Assembly: GCF_001886715.1 (NCBI RefSeq)
Contig: NZ_CP018082.1
Span: 4,278,001 to 4,342,000 of the forward strand
DNA from: Nocardia mangyaensis
Lineage (GTDB): Bacteria > Actinomycetota > Actinomycetes > Mycobacteriales > Mycobacteriaceae
Direction of reading: 5' to 3'
Length of the DNA: 64,000 nt
Positions 21,947 through 27,206 of this stretch are shown here, piece by piece. A program made the position numbers and the translations under genes. The number at the start of each line of letters is the position of its first letter. The first letter of the stretch is position 1. Under the pieces are notes generated by a model, which was not told the origin of the DNA, searched no databases, and was given only the letters and a program-made list of their open reading frames with translations.

Positions 21947-22330
21947 ATGGTCACAGAAGTCGTCGCCGCGGTGATCCTGGCAATCGTCGGCCTGGTGCAC
22001 GTGATACCCGGCGTGATCGCCCTCGCGCCGAGCCGAGCGGCCACCGCCTACGGCACCTCGATCCCGGACCGGGACTTCGAACTACTCCTGCGCCACCGGG
22101 CCGTTCTACTCGGCACGGTCGGCATCGGCTTGCTCGTCTGCGCATTCATGCCCGCCGCCAGACCTGTCACGATCGCAGCCGGAATCATCAGCACCGCTTC
22201 ATTTCTCGCACTGACGGCCGTCATCGGCCCGAGTCAGCTGAATTCGCGCACGCTGCGAGTGGCCCGCGTCGATGTCATCGCGCTGGTCGCGTTGATCGCC
22301 GCGACATGTCTGCTGGCAGTTGGCGGCTGA
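21947..22330 (+). CDS. Small four-helix membrane protein of unknown function
   Basis: A 127-residue hydrophobic protein with four predicted helices, at about 3-25, 48-66, 72-91 and 105-125, short loops and no catalytic motif. The ATG at 21947 was chosen: AAGGAG lies 6 nt upstream, and the frame's earlier ATGs overlap the divergent AraC-type gene. The divergent arrangement suggests it is, or was, the AraC regulator's target. I do not recognise a family. Confidence 0.7.
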   Translation: MVTEVVAAVILAIVGLVHVIPGVIALAPSRAATAYGTSIPDRDFELLLRHRAVLLGTVGIGLLVCAFMPAARPVTIAAGIISTASFLALTAVIGPSQLNSRTLRVARVDVIALVALIAATCLLAVGG

Positions 22331-22408
22331 ACGCCGCCACGGCTCAGTTCGAAGTCGGCGTCGTTCCCGCTGCAGACATCGGTCCCCGCACACCATGTCC
22401 CGGTGCGT

Positions 22409-23212
22409 TCACTCCCATGTCGCCGTGGCGGGGTCTGTGCCGTTGGCGCGGGCGTTGGCGTCGATGATGTCGCGCAGCCATGCGGTCAGGCCGGGGGTGA
22501 GTCCGTCGTAGAACGCGGTGTAATCGGGGTCGGTGATGTAGCGGCGGCCCAGGCAGACGTGCATCGCGTGGGTGCAGTCGAAGTACTGGGACAAGGACGC
22601 GCGGTGTCGTTCGGCGAGTGCGTCGGCGCGGGGATCGCCGGGGACCACACCGGATCGGCAGGCCGCGGCGAGGTCGGCGTGCAGTGCTTCGGTCTCGGCG
22701 GTGATGCGCTGCCAGTCCGCGGCGGATCGGGTGGCGGCGCGCTCGGCGTACTGGGCCCACTGCGGGGTGTCGCCCCACTGTTCGTGGGCCTGATCCACCC
22801 AGGCGGGTTGCCAGTGGCCGCCGAAGATCGCGATCTGGTCCTCGGCGGACAGCAGGATGCCCGATTCCCTGGCCGCGATCATCCGGTCCACCGCCTCGGC
22901 CATCTGCTCGAGGCGGTCGATCCTGGCGCCCAGCTCGTCGCGTTGGCGGCGCAGAGTGCTGAGGGCTTCGGCGGCGGGTGCGTCGAGCAGGGCGCCGATC
23001 TCGTCGAGCGCGACACCGAGTTCCCGGTAGACGAGTACCCGGTGGGCGCGGGCCAGGTCGGCGGCGGTGTAGAGCCGATAGCCCGCGGGCGTGCGCTCGG
23101 ACGGACTCACCAACCCGACGGTGTCCCAGTGGTGCAGGGTGCGGGTGGTGACGCCGAGCAGTCGGGCCGCCGCGCCGACGGTGCGGTGGTCCGTGGTGGA
23201 CGGTTGCGCCAT
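22409..23212 (-). CDS. MerR-family regulator with a TipAS-type C-terminal domain
   Basis: A 267-residue regulator. The MerR winged helix (V-G-A-A-A-R-L-L-G-V-T-T-R-T-L-H-H-W-D-T-V-G-L) and the A-G-Y-R-L-Y-T wing are followed by a coiled linker. A C-terminal helical domain with Q-W-A-Q-Y-A-E-R, the pattern H-R-A-S-L-S-Q-Y-F-D-C and the Y-I-T-D-P-D-Y-T-A-F-Y-D stretch is typical of TipAS, the antibiotic-binding domain of TipA. The ATG at 23212 gives the standard start. It lies 32 nt after the VOC gene and is probably in the operon driven by the ECF41 promoter at 23951-23977. Confidence 0.9.
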   Translation of the reverse strand: MAQPSTTDHRTVGAAARLLGVTTRTLHHWDTVGLVSPSERTPAGYRLYTAADLARAHRVLVYRELGVALDEIGALLDAPAAEALSTLRRQRDELGARIDRLEQMAEAVDRMIAARESGILLSAEDQIAIFGGHWQPAWVDQAHEQWGDTPQWAQYAERAATRSAADWQRITAETEALHADLAAACRSGVVPGDPRADALAERHRASLSQYFDCTHAMHVCLGRRYITDPDYTAFYDGLTPGLTAWLRDIIDANARANGTDPATATWE

Positions 23213-23244
23213 GTCCACCAGTCTGCCCGGCGTCGGCGGCATCG

Positions 23245-23745
23245 CTACGGCGCCTCGATGCCGATCGACCGCGGATGCGCGGCTTCTGGACTGTCCGGGT
23301 CGTAGGGGCGCGCCGCGGTCATGATCACCCGCGTGTTCTCCGGCGTGCGGACCTCGAGCTCCACCGAATTCCACGGCATCTGTCGCGGCCCCGCCGTGCA
23401 GCCCGGAATCGCCTGCTCACACGCGGCGGAGATCGCGTCGAGCTCCCCGAGAACACACGAGAAGCTCACGGTGAGCGCGGGTGCCTCGGCGGCCGGGGCC
23501 CCGGGGACGAGCAGGACGTCCTGGAACGCCCAGCGCCGCAGATGCGTGAGCTGCGCCGACACCGAGAACAGGTCGACGAAGCCGAGCACCTCGGTCCAGA
23601 AGGCCACCGAAGCGGCGAGGTCGGCGGTCTGCACGGTCACGAACATCGGCATGCCGTAGAGGCCGCGGAACGGCTCGGGCGCCACCGCATCGGGGCCGGG
23701 GATCGGCACGGGGCTGATATCGAAGGCGGGGAATGTTTCGGTCAT
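23245..23745 (-). CDS. VOC (glyoxalase / bleomycin-resistance fold) protein
   Basis: A 166-residue vicinal-oxygen-chelate protein. The first beta-alpha-beta module begins M-F-V-T-V-Q-T-A-D-L-A-A-S-V-A-F-W-T-E-V-L-G-F, and the second ends with V-E-L-E-V-R-T-P-E-N-T. Substrate unknown; family members bind metals or drugs, or act as dioxygenases. It lies between the truncated carboxymuconolactone-decarboxylase remnant (5 nt upstream) and the MerR/TipAS gene, all on one strand behind an ECF41 promoter. With a drug-binding-type regulator beside it, a detoxification role is possible but unproven. Confidence 0.85.
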   Translation of the reverse strand: MTETFPAFDISPVPIPGPDAVAPEPFRGLYGMPMFVTVQTADLAASVAFWTEVLGFVDLFSVSAQLTHLRRWAFQDVLLVPGAPAAEAPALTVSFSCVLGELDAISAACEQAIPGCTAGPRQMPWNSVELEVRTPENTRVIMTAARPYDPDSPEAAHPRSIGIEAP

Positions 23746-23750
23746 ACGAG

Positions 23751-23906
23751 TCAGCGTGAACCCTTACGCAACGTGAGGGTCAAGTTCACCAGCCCCCTGG
23801 TGCTCTCCGCCAGCGACGACTGGTCGATGATCACCGCGGCCGCGGCGAATCGCTTGCTGAACCTGGTGGCGAGCTCGTTGGTGAACAGGTCGAATCGTGC
23901 GCTCAT
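23751..23906 (-). pseudogene. Carboxymuconolactone decarboxylase / AhpD-like protein, N-terminal remnant
   Basis: A 51-codon frame starting at 23906 (GAGGA 7 nt upstream) reads S-A-R-F-D-L-F...F-A-A-A-A-V-I-I-D-Q-S-S-L-A. This resembles the first 40-45 residues of CMD/AhpD-family proteins found beside ECF41 sigma genes. It then ends in a non-family tail, L-R-K-G-S-R-stop, where the family continues into the Cys-x-x-Cys redox centre. The catalytic part is therefore missing. The upstream ECF41 promoter is still perfect, so the remnant now acts mainly as a leader for the VOC and MerR genes. Confidence 0.6.
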
Positions 23907-23950
23907 GGCGTCGTCCTCGCGGGTGGTGTTGGCTGGGTGGACGACCACAA

Positions 23951-23977
23951 GACGCCGGGCACTCAGACCCTGTGACA
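23951..23977 (-). promoter_or_regulatory. ECF41-type promoter, leftward (CMD remnant-VOC-MerR)
   Basis: The minus strand has TGTCACA, then exactly 16 nt, then CGTC: the published ECF41 consensus TGTCACA-N16-CGTC. It lies 45 nt upstream of the CMD remnant start and faces away from the sigma gene. Confidence 0.85.
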
Positions 23978-24012
23978 GCACCGCCGACATGACGCGGATC
24001 ACCGAGCATGGC

Positions 24013-24039
24013 TGTCACATCGCGGCGCTCTCGGGCGTC
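24013..24039 (+). promoter_or_regulatory. ECF41-type promoter, rightward (sigma gene itself)
   Basis: TGTCACA (24013-24019), 16 nt, CGTC (24036-24039): an exact ECF41 consensus. It implies autoregulation of the sigma gene. Because transcription must start near 24045, it excludes the ATG at 24042 and supports the start at 24078. Confidence 0.85.
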
Positions 24040-24077
24040 TGGTGTGCGACAGAACCGCCGATCGACAGGAGTCACCG

Positions 24078-24968
24078 ATGAGCGAGCGCATGGACCCCGC
24101 GACCGAGTCGTTCGTCGCGCACCGCAATCTGCTGTTCACCGTCGCCTACGAGATGCTCGGTTCGGCCGCCGACGCCGAGGACGTCCTGCAGGAGACCTGG
24201 CTGCGCTGGGCCGATGTAGAGCTCGCGACCGTGCGGGATCAACGCGCCTATCTGGTCAGGATCACCACCCGCCAGTCGTTGAGCAGATTGCGCACGCTGG
24301 GGCGGCGCAAGGAGAACTACGTCGGGCCGTGGCTGCCGGAGCCGCTGCTGACCACCCCCGACATCGCCGACGACGTCACGCTGGCCGACAGCGTGTCGAT
24401 GGCGATGCTGCTGGTCATGGAGACGCTCGCCCCGGTCGAGCGGGCGGTGTTCGTGCTGCGCGAGGTGTTCGACCTGCCCTACGACGAGATCGCCGACGCG
24501 GTGGACAAGACCCCCGCCGCAGTCCGCCAGATCGCCCACCGCGCGCGAGCGCACGTCGCCGCCCGCAGACCGCGCGGCGTCGTGTCCTCGACCGAGAGCC
24601 GCCACGCCCTCGAAGCCTTCGGGCGCGCGGTCGAGACCGGCGACCTCCAGGGTCTGCTCGACCTGCTCGCTCCCGATGTCGTGCTGCTCGCCGACGGCGG
24701 CGGTGTCGTCAAGGCGGTGGTCAACCCGATCTTCGGGGCCGACAAGGTCGTCCGCCTGCTCGGCGGCGGGATCCCCAGGATCACCGGGCCCGTCTCGACC
24801 GAGGTCGTGCAGCTCAACGGCGCTCCGGCACTGACGATTCGGATCGACGGCGTGATCGACTGCATCATGGCCGTCCGCATCGACGACGGCGCGATCTCGG
24901 GGCTCTACATCGTTCGCAACCCGGAGAAGCTGTCGCGCGTGGAGCGCGAGACCGCGGTGAGCCGCTGA
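24078..24968 (+). CDS. ECF41-family RNA polymerase sigma factor (SigJ-like)
   Basis: A 296-residue extracytoplasmic-function sigma factor. Sigma region 2 (about 11-75) and region 4 (about 113-165) are followed by a SnoaL-like C-terminal domain that regulates activity in place of an anti-sigma factor. ECF41 hallmarks are visible: W-L-P-E-P (85-89) in the linker, D-G-G-G (206-209), and N-P-E-K-L (281-285, normally N-P-D-K-L). Start chosen for AGGAG 6 nt upstream and by the promoter position. It faces the CMD remnant-VOC-MerR operon across two exact ECF41 promoters. The signal it senses is unknown. Confidence 0.95.
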   Translation: MSERMDPATESFVAHRNLLFTVAYEMLGSAADAEDVLQETWLRWADVELATVRDQRAYLVRITTRQSLSRLRTLGRRKENYVGPWLPEPLLTTPDIADDVTLADSVSMAMLLVMETLAPVERAVFVLREVFDLPYDEIADAVDKTPAAVRQIAHRARAHVAARRPRGVVSSTESRHALEAFGRAVETGDLQGLLDLLAPDVVLLADGGGVVKAVVNPIFGADKVVRLLGGGIPRITGPVSTEVVQLNGAPALTIRIDGVIDCIMAVRIDDGAISGLYIVRNPEKLSRVERETAVSR

Positions 24969-24990
24969 GCTCCGCCCTGCTACAAGTGGA

Positions 24991-25872
24991 GTGGTGACGC
25001 AGGTCGATATTCCGCTGAGTGAGGACATCCGCGCCGCCGTCGCGGCCGAGTGGGGAATCCGAGGTGAGGGCGAACGCCTCTCCGGCGGTGGCGAATCCGC
25101 CGCGTACCGCGTCGGCGAAGTGGTCGTGCGGATCGGCGGGCTCGACCGCGATCCAGCCGAGGTGCAGTGGTGCAACGGCATCGCCGTCGCGGCCGGTGCG
25201 GTCGACGAGGTCGTGGCGCCGCTGGCCCGCGCCGACGGGTCGACAGTCGCGGTGGTGCACGGCCGTCCGGTCACCGTGTGGCCGCTGGTCGACGGACAGT
25301 GGGTCGACGTGGACGACCCCGTCCAGGTCGCCGAAGCCGCAACGCTGCTGGCCCGCGTGCATCGCACGCTGGCCGATCATCGACCGCCACCACGCCCCCG
25401 CCCCGGCTTCCTCGAGGTCGGCCTGGACGGCACACCCTCGACCGAACTACCCGACCCCGAGCTCGACCGCTGGCTCGCCGAGTTCACCCGCACCGCCCGC
25501 GTGCAACCGCTCCACGGCGACTATTCCGAGGCGAACCTCCTCGCCCACGACGGACACGTCACAGCACTGCTCGACTGGGACGCAGCCCTCATCGGCCCAC
25601 CCGAGGTCGAATTGGCCTCGGCCGCACTGGAGTTCGCCGACGAATTCGGCCAGGACCCCACCGCGGCCCGCCACTTCGTCGCGACCTACCACGCCGCAGG
25701 CGGCACAGCCTCCCCCCTCGACGACCGCACCCGCACCCAACTCATGCGACACCGCCTCCGCCGCGAAGCCGCCTACTTCACCCTCACCGTCGCCCGCGGT
25801 GCCGAACACGACGAAGACGACCTCGCCTACCACCACGAACGCCTGACCGCCTTCCACCGCCTGAGGCTGTAG
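24991..25872 (+). CDS. APH-fold phosphotransferase
   Basis: A 293-residue protein of the aminoglycoside phosphotransferase / choline kinase superfamily. It has an N-lobe with G-G-G-E-S-A-A-Y-R-V and V-V-V-R-I-G, the catalytic loop H-G-D-Y-S-E-A-N-L-L near residue 172 and the metal-binding L-D-W-D. It probably phosphorylates a small hydroxylated substrate; drug resistance cannot be claimed from sequence. Two adjacent GTG codons (24991 and 24994) are possible starts, and I gave the first. It lies 22 nt after the ECF41 sigma gene and 23 nt before the P-loop gene. Confidence 0.85.
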   Translation: MVTQVDIPLSEDIRAAVAAEWGIRGEGERLSGGGESAAYRVGEVVVRIGGLDRDPAEVQWCNGIAVAAGAVDEVVAPLARADGSTVAVVHGRPVTVWPLVDGQWVDVDDPVQVAEAATLLARVHRTLADHRPPPRPRPGFLEVGLDGTPSTELPDPELDRWLAEFTRTARVQPLHGDYSEANLLAHDGHVTALLDWDAALIGPPEVELASAALEFADEFGQDPTAARHFVATYHAAGGTASPLDDRTRTQLMRHRLRREAAYFTLTVARGAEHDEDDLAYHHERLTAFHRLRL

Positions 25873-25895
25873 TCGAGATCAGTAGGGTCTTCGCG

Positions 25896-26504
25896 GTGAT
25901 CGTTGCTGTGGAAGGGCCCAGTGCTGCGGGGAAGACGACGTGGTGTCGAGGTTCGGGGCTGGCGTTCGTTGCCGAGTACGCGCCCACCGGGGTGGAGCCG
26001 GAGGGGGCCGATCTGGTTGGGCAGGCGGCGTACTGGGTGGGCGTGAATTCTCAGCGGTGGGCGAAGGCGCTGGAGTTGTCGGGCACTACCGGGGTCGCGG
26101 TGTGTGACAGTGATCCGCTGAAGCTGCACTACAGCTGGTGCCTGGCGGCGGTGGGTGCGGCGCCGTTCTCGCGGTTCGAACATGAACTCGCTGCCGTCCG
26201 TAGCGCCTTCGCGCGGCGTCAGCTCGGACTTCCCGATGTTGTGCTGTTGTCGATTCCGGATGCACCGCGGCTGATGGCACAACGCCTCGGCGATCCGACT
26301 CGACGCCGTCGACACTTCGACCTGCACGCACGCCTTTCCGAACCGCTGGCCGAATGGTATGCCGCCCTGGAGCGACTCGACTCCGGACGTGTCATCGACG
26401 GTTTTCCGCCTGCACTCGACCTCGAGACGTTGGCACCGCCACGTCGGGATCGCTACGACCTGGACCTGCTCGACAGCTTGGTCGACGGACTGCCCACCGT
26501 GTGA
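25896..26504 (+). CDS. P-loop kinase-like ATPase
   Basis: A 202-residue protein opening with a Walker A loop, V-E-G-P-S-A-A-G-K-T-T (about 5-15), then an alpha-beta kinase-like core with V-C-D-S-D-P-L-K-L-H and V-V-L-L-S-I-P-D-A-P. It resembles small nucleoside/nucleotide-kinase-type P-loop proteins, but I cannot name a substrate. Start: a GTG directly before the I-V-A-V-E-G-P strand; a longer frame upstream overlaps the phosphotransferase gene. It is probably co-transcribed with that gene. Confidence 0.7.
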   Translation: MIVAVEGPSAAGKTTWCRGSGLAFVAEYAPTGVEPEGADLVGQAAYWVGVNSQRWAKALELSGTTGVAVCDSDPLKLHYSWCLAAVGAAPFSRFEHELAAVRSAFARRQLGLPDVVLLSIPDAPRLMAQRLGDPTRRRRHFDLHARLSEPLAEWYAALERLDSGRVIDGFPPALDLETLAPPRRDRYDLDLLDSLVDGLPTV

Positions 26505-26545
26505 CGTATCGACGGTCGGCGGCCGCTGACACCACCGCACTGCGT

Positions 26546-26561
26546 TCGAACACACATTCGA
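26546..26561. promoter_or_regulatory. LexA (SOS) box upstream of alkB
   Basis: TCGAAC-ACAC-ATTCGA matches the mycobacterial SOS box TCGAAC-N4-GTTCGA at 11 of 12 positions. It ends 9 bp before the alkB -10 hexamer TAGGAT, where LexA would block RNA polymerase. Confidence 0.7.
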
Positions 26562-26569
26562 ATCGCTGG

Positions 26570-26575
26570 TAGGAT
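26570..26575 (+). promoter_or_regulatory. -10 element of alkB, giving a leaderless transcript
   Basis: TAGGAT ends 7 nt before the alkB ATG, so transcription would begin at or next to the start codon. No Shine-Dalgarno sequence is present, in line with leaderless translation. Confidence 0.5.
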
Positions 26576-26582
26576 CGCCGAC

Positions 26583-27206
26583 ATGTCGTTACCCCTGCAG
26601 AGTTCGCTGTTCGACGGTGATGCGGTGGCGTTGGGTTCACTCTCGGCGGTTCGACGGACCCCACTCGACGCGAGCTCCTGGGTGGATGTCCTACCTGGAT
26701 GGCTGAGTGGGGCGGGTGTGATGTTCGACCGGCTGGCCGAGCGGGTGCCGTGGCATGCCGAGCGGCGGCCGATGTACGACCGGGTGGTCGACGTGCCGCG
26801 ACTGGTGTCGTTCTTCGGGGAGAACGATCCACTGCCCGACCGCATCCTGGTCGAGGCGAGGACGGCGCTCTCGGCGCATTACGCGAGCGAGCTCGGCGAA
26901 CCGTTCCGGACCGCGGGGCTGTGTTTCTATCGCGACGGCCGCGACAGCGTGGCCTGGCACGGCGACACGATCGGGCGCGGCGCCACCCACGACACGATGG
27001 TCGCGATCGTCTCGGTCGGCGCGGCCCGGTCGCTACTGCTGCGGCCGCGCGGCGGGGGCGCGAGCGTGCGATTCGCCGCCGGACACGGGGACCTACTGGT
27101 GATGGGCGGCGCGTGTCAGCGCACCTGGGAGCACGCCGTGCCGAAGACCACACGCCCAGTGGGCCCGCGCATCAGCGTTCAGTTCCGCACGCGCGACGTC
27201 CGCTGA
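26583..27206 (+). CDS. alkB: AlkB-type alpha-ketoglutarate-dependent dioxygenase (alkylated DNA repair)
   Basis: Removes methyl groups from 1-methyladenine and 3-methylcytosine by iron- and 2-oxoglutarate-dependent oxidation. The 207-residue protein has all ligands: iron-binding His126 and Asp128 in W-H-G-D-T-I-G, His184 in W-E-H-A-V-P-K-T, and 2-oxoglutarate-binding Arg196 and Arg202 in G-P-R-I-S-V-Q-F-R. The substrate lid includes F-Y-R-D-G-R-D-S. A LexA-type box and a TAGGAT -10 hexamer lie immediately upstream, suggesting damage induction from a leaderless transcript. No ada, alkA or ogt gene is nearby. Confidence 0.95.
   Translation: MSLPLQSSLFDGDAVALGSLSAVRRTPLDASSWVDVLPGWLSGAGVMFDRLAERVPWHAERRPMYDRVVDVPRLVSFFGENDPLPDRILVEARTALSAHYASELGEPFRTAGLCFYRDGRDSVAWHGDTIGRGATHDTMVAIVSVGAARSLLLRPRGGGASVRFAAGHGDLLVMGGACQRTWEHAVPKTTRPVGPRISVQFRTRDVR

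Follow-up and report, generated by a model that had tools for sequence, protein, structure and literature searches.

Two promoters of the ECF41 type stand back to back in the window (the whole stretch of 64,000 nucleotides analysed here), one directed at an ECF41-type sigma gene and the other towards two genes that encode a VOC (glyoxalase/bleomycin-resistance-like) protein and a MerR-family regulator. Is this gene pair a dedicated operon of the sigma factor, or did it come to lie behind the leftward promoter in some other way? The reading that we consider probable is that of a standard actinobacterial ECF41 divergent control region with a changed left output, in which the start of a CMD gene would have been joined to a VOC-MerR module, and in which a dyad between the two promoters is possibly bound by a CRP/FNR-type protein. 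The unusual part of the locus is its left arm, not the divergent pair.

The sigma gene and its divergent promoters

The sigma gene (24078..24968, + strand, with its ATG at 24078) encodes a SigX4/SigJ-like protein of 296 aa with a C-terminal extension. It had been assigned to ECF41 on account of the motifs WLPEP, DGGG and NPEKL, and all three are indeed present in the translated reading frame; WLPEP is a hallmark of the group named in PMC3426412, and the other two do not appear as words in the available text of that paper. The assignment stands on other grounds as well, as the protein scores 370 bits against TIGR02957 (cut-off 323), Pfam Sigma70_r2 and r4_2 are both above cut-off, and regions 2 and 4 come together with the WLPEP linker by which ECF41 members are recognised. 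About 135 residues follow region 4, where ECF41 factors carry a SnoaL-like extension of about 100 aa; the SnoaL_2 match in this part is weak and below cut-off (0.017), while the matches to TIGR02957 and SigJ are full-length. The closest solved structure is that of SigJ (5xe7, residues 10-286, E 3.7e-45). ECF41 genes as a rule lack an anti-sigma gene beside them and have a CMD, oxidoreductase or epimerase gene as partner. Here the partner is a CMD, kept only as a remnant; no match to an anti-sigma family was found in the seven neighbours scanned besides this remnant, some of which have no Pfam match over cut-off. The genome that holds the window encodes five full-length SigX4-type proteins of at least 246 bits, the window sigma among them, and two of the five, this one and one other, pass the TIGR02957 cut-off. 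In the sigma tree the support near the window sigma is modest, and long-branch paralogues fall into the same group. PMC3426412, in its available text, calls the activating signal of ECF41 factors unknown.

The core promoter TGTCACA-N16-CGTC of the sigma gene lies at 24013..24039 on the + strand and reaches 24044 with its extended -10 (GGCGTCTGGTG); its divergent counterpart, formerly the CMD promoter, lies at 23951..23977 on the - strand and extends to 23946. Core and extended motif are exact on both sides, and both sites have the features of ECF41-dependent promoters (TGTCACA, a spacer of 16 +/- 1 bp, CGTC). The sequence-only reading had placed two exact sites here, 35 bp apart, and both its coordinates and this distance proved right: a pattern search finds TGTCACA-N16-CGTC at these two places only in the 64-kb window, and 100 shuffles of the window gave a mean of 0.05 sites and never two. 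We infer that transcription would start from either promoter. Autoregulation of the sigma gene, which had also been proposed, is likely.

Divergent ECF41 promoters are an ordinary arrangement. That the pair might be new is ruled out by Wecke et al. 2012 (PMC3426412), whose Table 4 already gives the order <ECF< >COE> for 55 of 373 loci, the motif preceding ECF in 36 of them and COE in 41. In our own comparison of 118 distinct sigma proteins (window included; four are paralogues of less than 65% identity), a CMD-family gene lies divergently within 400 bp of the sigma gene at 55 of the 118 loci, nearly full length at 52 and as a weak match over residues 25-154 at the other three. Upstream regions were counted in 114 loci, that is with duplicates collapsed beforehand and with the four regions of less than 65% sigma identity left out; relatives in these counts are not independent samples. 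With an exact -35, a relaxed -10 and a spacer of 15-17 bp, both promoters are found at 25/114 loci, the window included, and a counterpart of the divergent promoter at 38/114; neither promoter is found under this pattern in 34/114 upstream regions, and only the divergent one in 12 more. An N16 promoter of the ECF41 class precedes 67 of the 114 related sigma genes. The distance between the CMD start and the sigma start is 172 bp in the window, and 172, 172 and 174 bp in three related loci (L280, L281 and L288).

It was also predicted earlier that sigma gene and left arm form a closed regulon, and a genome-wide search for the motif had been suggested as a check. We ran this search and obtained 10 matches to TGTCACA-N16-CGTC in the 7.31-Mb genome (one contig), two of them in the window, and none for the reversed control pattern. 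Five of the eight sites outside the window (own-genome positions 640886, 1237941, 1753178, 3735861 and 6677923; loci L059-L062 and L065) stand 37-49 bp, counted from CGTC, before a plausible start codon, and the genes that follow are of CMD, L-PSP/RidA-type, ECF41 paralogue, NAD(P)-binding and DoxX-like kind; the other three look like chance, since one falls within the frame of an NRPS-like gene and the remaining two are followed by no clear gene. As five of eight sites precede plausible start codons, the motif is probably a promoter class used at several places in the genome. The idea that the window pair is random, given core matches elsewhere, is ruled out by the same five sites in promoter position.

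Related promoters have more in common than the core, namely a G pair (or AG) before CGTC and TCTnRTG after it. With a slightly looser pattern this extended -10 is found in 61 of 67 sigma-side and 32 of 36 divergent promoters, and in these alignments GGCRTCTnRTG is typical of the ECF41 subgroup of the window sigma; we found no mention of an extended -10 in the available sections of PMC3426412. None of the five other promoter-position sites fits the extended motif or has an extended -10 of the window type, and four of the five have a T before CGTC, which suggests that they are targets of another ECF41 factor. The full motif TGTCACA-N14-GGCRTCTnRTG has two exact matches in the genome, both at the window locus, and one match each with one and with two mismatches, flanking another ECF41-type gene at about 5.62 Mb. 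Matches at three mismatches are uninformative, since a count that allows up to three gives 27 for the motif against 58 for the reversed control. The confinement of the exact extended promoter to the window locus supports a locus-restricted regulon, and the closed regulon may be kept as a prediction. As a side observation, the second ECF41-type gene (L067, own genome 5612000-5626000) is flanked by two near-consensus promoters of the form CGTCACA...GGCRTC which, by sequence reading, precede genes for a small membrane protein and for a putative FAD oxidoreductase.

To the right, an APH-like phosphotransferase gene (24991..25872, + strand, PF01636 5.3e-19) begins 22 bp after the sigma gene and could be co-transcribed with it, and no terminator-like site was found in 22300-26700. 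The small gene after it (both lie within 24991-26504) seems by eye to encode a P-loop protein and has no Pfam match; among the loci compared, the APH-like gene and this small gene were found only in those of the window's own genome.

A conserved dyad between the two promoters

The 35-bp gap is not empty. At 23989..24002 it holds a dyad (ATGACGCGGATCAC) that differs by one mismatch (A for G) from GTGA-N6-YCAC and is placed centrally, with 11 bp between it and the left -35 box and 10 bp on the right side. The sequence-only reading mentions neither this dyad nor the APH-like gene. Due to its mismatch the window copy is missed by exact-pattern counts. GTGA-N6-YCAC is present in 60 of the 114 upstream regions, whereas 200 shuffled sets averaged 1.86 and never exceeded 6; once regions of 80% or more similarity are merged, 47 of 96 clusters have the dyad. 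Its place is conserved as well. Allowing at most one mismatch, the dyad begins at position -24 +/- 1 relative to the sigma -35 box at 42 of the 68 loci with a sigma promoter (20/25 where both promoters were found, 22/43 where the sigma promoter alone was), and at 34 of the 38 loci with a divergent promoter it is found 9-11 bp inward of that promoter's -35 box. Exact dyads anchored on the sigma promoter (n=40) are mostly found at -14 (5), -24 +/- 1 (30) and -34/-35 (3). Where both promoters were found (25 loci), the gap itself measures 34 or 35 bp at 18. The 35-bp distance, with the dyad inside it, belongs to a conserved geometry. Dyads at -24 are found in Streptomyces, Micromonospora, Actinomadura, Nonomuraea and Microtetraspora among others, and also in Bailinhaonella, Amycolatopsis, Kribbella and Nocardia loci; these names come from the best 80 of 457 confirmed places in the search for related loci.

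In the 148 genomes of the genus searched, GTGA-N6-YCAC stands at most 30 bp before TGTCACA in 329 cases, in comparison to 37 for the reversed control. The spacing among the 150 of these 329 matches that were listed is 9-11 in 55, 3-5 in 24 and 13-15 in 19, and we dropped the idea of a strict 10-bp helical phasing in all ECF41 groups since spacings of 3-5 and 13-15 also occur. Where the match was examined further (31 matches, 30 loci), an ECF41 -10 stands in register in 17 and is absent in 14. In several genomes of the genus-wide list (150 of 329) we also noticed GTGA-N6-TCAC followed after about 15-20 bp by a TGTCACA that is itself part of TGTGCAATGTCACA or GGTGCAATGTCACA. These are possibly tandem CRP-like sites, and two examples of the arrangement (L324 and L325) have no ECF41 -10.

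What might bind the dyad? The window's own genome encodes a protein (around 349591) close to the solved CRP/FNR-family regulators 3d0s and 3i54, which we take to be Rv3676. The Rv3676 consensus given in the available part of PMC4005916 is GTGnnAnnnnnCACA, that is GTG-N8-CAC, and the relatives keep this spacing at a fixed promoter distance (the 34 of 38 loci mentioned, with at most one mismatch), the window copy having one mismatch. This suggests a CRP/FNR-type protein as a candidate co-regulator of ECF41 promoters, and the conserved palindrome at a fixed place offers a concrete candidate for their second input. A bolder version, which we put forward only tentatively, is that actinobacterial ECF41 pairs share the plan TGTGACA-N10-(GTGA-N6-YCAC)-N10-TGTCACA, with one CRP/FNR-type dimer at its centre. 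The sigma extension and a CRP-like, possibly cAMP-linked, protein would then form a two-input switch, here newly joined by one rearrangement to the VOC-TipAS genes. The main text of PMC3426412, as available, does not contain the words palindrom, inverted repeat, Crp or glyoxalase.

One has to consider, on the other hand, that the dyad might be the site of some other regulator, or a set of degenerate -35-like half sites for the sigma factor itself. We give this alternative a chance of about one in three, since the half sites GTGAC/GTCAC do resemble the core of TGTCACA and the spacings of 3-5 (24/150) and 13-15 (19/150) occur besides that of 9-11 (55/150) among the matches listed. It fits less well with a 14-bp palindrome whose GTG-N8-CAC spacing is that of the Rv3676 consensus in the part of PMC4005916 available, nor does it sit easily with the presence of the dyad at -24 +/- 1 in 22 of 43 loci that have a sigma promoter and no divergent promoter motif.

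A truncated CMD gene joined to a VOC-MerR module

Leftward of the divergent promoter lies a 51-codon reading frame (23751..23906, - strand), of which the first 41 codons or so are CMD by alignment to divergent CMDs. The alignment covers residues 1-42 (at most 1-50) of these proteins, and the frame corresponds to the first quarter of a CMD (about 41 of roughly 155 codons), with 11 of 13 highly conserved CMD columns kept. The remnant by itself has no match to Pfam CMD, and the earlier description of it as a CMD remnant is borne out by this alignment of its first residues. The frame runs into TTGACCCTCACGTTGCGTAAGGGTTCACGCT, the MerR-type promoter of the VOC gene, and ends inside that promoter, with its stop codon 5 nt before the VOC start.

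The VOC gene (23245..23745, - strand, 166 aa) has weak Pfam matches to Ble-like_N and Glyoxalase, both below cut-off, and matches to it, a few of which are weak, occur in 73 of the 150 genus genomes. The MerR gene (22409..23212, - strand) encodes 267 aa with a TipAS drug-recognition domain (PF07739, 3.7e-33) and MerR_1 (PF13411, 5.8e-15), both above cut-off; the TipAS-type regulator named from the letters alone is thus confirmed, and with a MerR HTH and a TipAS domain it has what defines the TipA class. Drug binding by this regulator is predicted from the domain. The promoter of the VOC gene (23753..23783, - strand) consists of TTGACC, a 19-bp spacer with a dyad and the -10 CACGCT, and the VOC start follows 7 nt further; this agrees with MerR-type promoters as described in the available part of PMC9909328, which have a 19-20 bp spacer and a palindrome between -35 and -10. 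We compared 35 VOC loci (the window and 34 others taken from the best matches), and all 35 have the same promoter layout with a 19-bp spacer; in each of them MerR is the next gene after VOC and has the same orientation. In all 35 (L068-L076 and L243-L268) 6-7 nt separate the -10 from the VOC start, which implies that the VOC message from this promoter would be leaderless or nearly so; in five of the 35 rows the start was read by eye, the automatic one being an earlier GTG. Among the 35 loci, that of the window alone has an ECF41 core promoter in the 300 bp before VOC, and one other locus has TGTCAC in this interval without the rest of the motif. On these comparisons, VOC-MerR forms a separate module, to which a conserved MerR-type promoter of its own belongs.

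A comparison of 23600-24080 by BLAST with 150 genus genomes, the window's own included, gave matches in 97 and located the place where the two parts meet. These matches are of two classes, one on the VOC side and one on the CMD/sigma side, with their boundary at about 23784/23785 (alignment ends place the junction within 23781..23788). Long VOC-side alignments stop at query positions 184-191 (201 once), and CMD/sigma-side alignments start at 182 or later. At most four candidates per genome were scored, and among the matches so listed in the 149 other genus genomes none spans the junction; under the same limit, the longest alignment crossing it outside the window's own genome reaches 16 bases past it. 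The 3' part of CMD was not found in the window when the intact CMD of the same genome was used as a query, and insertion of VOC-MerR into a CMD gene was ruled out for lack of this part. A deletion would be the simplest way to the present junction, the order of events, their direction and size being deduced from the sequence.

The sigma gene is probably an old neighbour of VOC-MerR. The order pyr genes, MerR, VOC, then alkB is common to the window and four related genomes (G130, G090, G118 and G143), and ECF41 genes or fragments at the same place in two of these point to such an old neighbourhood. In G090 the ECF41 gene at that place is 79% identical to the window sigma and is its nearest relative in the tree (support 0.79). 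Next to it, however, lies a gene for an EamA transporter rather than CMD, and the ancestral order is therefore not seen directly. G130 has only a fragment of the ECF41 gene left at the syntenic place (L270:10302-10574), which indicates that the pyr-alkB neighbourhood is in flux within the genus.

Does the leftward ECF41 promoter still matter for VOC-MerR? It might be a relic that fires only into a decaying CMD stub, with VOC-MerR wholly dependent on the MerR promoter. Most of the CMD length is lost, the VOC promoter layout is fully kept and may carry all VOC-MerR expression, and the identity of the stub to 55 intact CMDs (0.477) is below their own average (0.574), yet within range. This is an unlikely but serious option. 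Against it, the left promoter still has the full consensus CGTC, although 30 of 36 divergent promoters have CATC at that -10, and no terminator-like site was found between the stub and VOC, so that some read-through is expected. A less likely proposition still is that VOC and MerR are dedicated, selected ECF41 targets which form one stress-responsive operon with the CMD remnant. It would agree with the exact left promoter, with the extended motif being unique to the window locus in the genome, and with a stub frame that stays open until 5 nt before VOC and is not separated from it by a terminator-like site. Against it stand the single ECF41 core promoter among 35 VOC-MerR loci, the module's own conserved promoter, and a junction unspanned among the matches listed in the 149 other genus genomes. 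The sequence-only reading had taken VOC-MerR for such a dedicated ECF41 operon, and in this form we find no support for it in view of the independent MerR-type promoter at 35/35 loci. It had also called a drug-binding regulator in an ECF41 operon non-standard, and an ECF41 promoter before VOC-MerR is seen at 1/35 loci. Our literature search found nothing that joins ECF41 with glyoxalase, and nothing beyond a general review that joins ECF41 with MerR. That the junction is an assembly error is very improbable: it is seen in a single genome, but that genome is one contig of 100% completeness, and the neighbourhood on both sides is common to related species.

Proposed mechanism and comparison with known systems

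In the reading that we prefer, the divergent control region with a changed left output, the ECF41 sigma factor would transcribe its own gene rightward and formerly transcribed CMD leftward, its polymerase starting at both promoters, perhaps aided by a protein bound to the dyad. The dyad, which lies midway between the -35 boxes, may be bound by a CRP/FNR-type protein that acts on both promoters together. Some rearrangement, in its simplest form a deletion, would have taken away all but the first quarter of CMD, along with whatever genes lay behind it, and would have brought the start of CMD up against the MerR-type promoter of a VOC-MerR(TipAS) module that was already resident there. As this module has a promoter of its own, which the junction placed downstream of the ECF41 promoter, the ECF41 input would be one of read-through, over a distance of about 200 bp and across the 51-codon stub. 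VOC-MerR might then have two stacked inputs, its own ligand-dependent MerR promoter and ECF41 read-through; since the stub stops 5 nt before the VOC start, translational coupling between the two is possible as well. One may speculate that MerR, sitting on its own promoter, could hinder the read-through. The rightward transcript would hold the sigma gene and possibly the APH-like gene too. Seen directly in the letters are the sites, with the way they are arranged and conserved, the junction, and the fact that the module is independent; that ECF41 transcription reads through into VOC, that translation is coupled, that a protein occupies the dyad and in what order the events took place, we infer from them. 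The window offers, at base resolution, an example of the way in which a sigma factor could acquire a new target by rearrangement, the operon keeping its own switch while joined to the sigma factor's promoter.

Four known systems may be set beside this locus. SigJ of Mycobacterium tuberculosis (5xe7), an ECF41 example in the available text of PMC8999054, is like the window sigma in the aligned residues 10-286 and in its C-terminal extension; with E 3.7e-45 we call it a relative, on the comparison of the two proteins. CRP/FNR-family sites, as represented by the Rv3676 consensus in the available part of PMC4005916, have the same GTG-N8-CAC spacing as the dyad, and differ in that the candidate site here lies between two ECF-type promoters. 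The autoregulated multidrug regulators of the TipA class, as far as the available text of PMC7762955 describes them, share with the window MerR the MerR DNA-binding part, the TipAS domain and a long-spacer MerR-type promoter before their own operon; in contrast, the window MerR comes second in a VOC-MerR pair and, alone among the 35 loci, has an ECF41 promoter added further upstream. Finally, the published ECF41 locus of the <ECF< >COE> type is like the window in being divergent, in having TGTCACA-N16-CGTC on both sides and in having CMD as the original partner, whereas in the window, by comparison with the available part of PMC3426412, CMD is truncated and joined to a VOC-MerR module.
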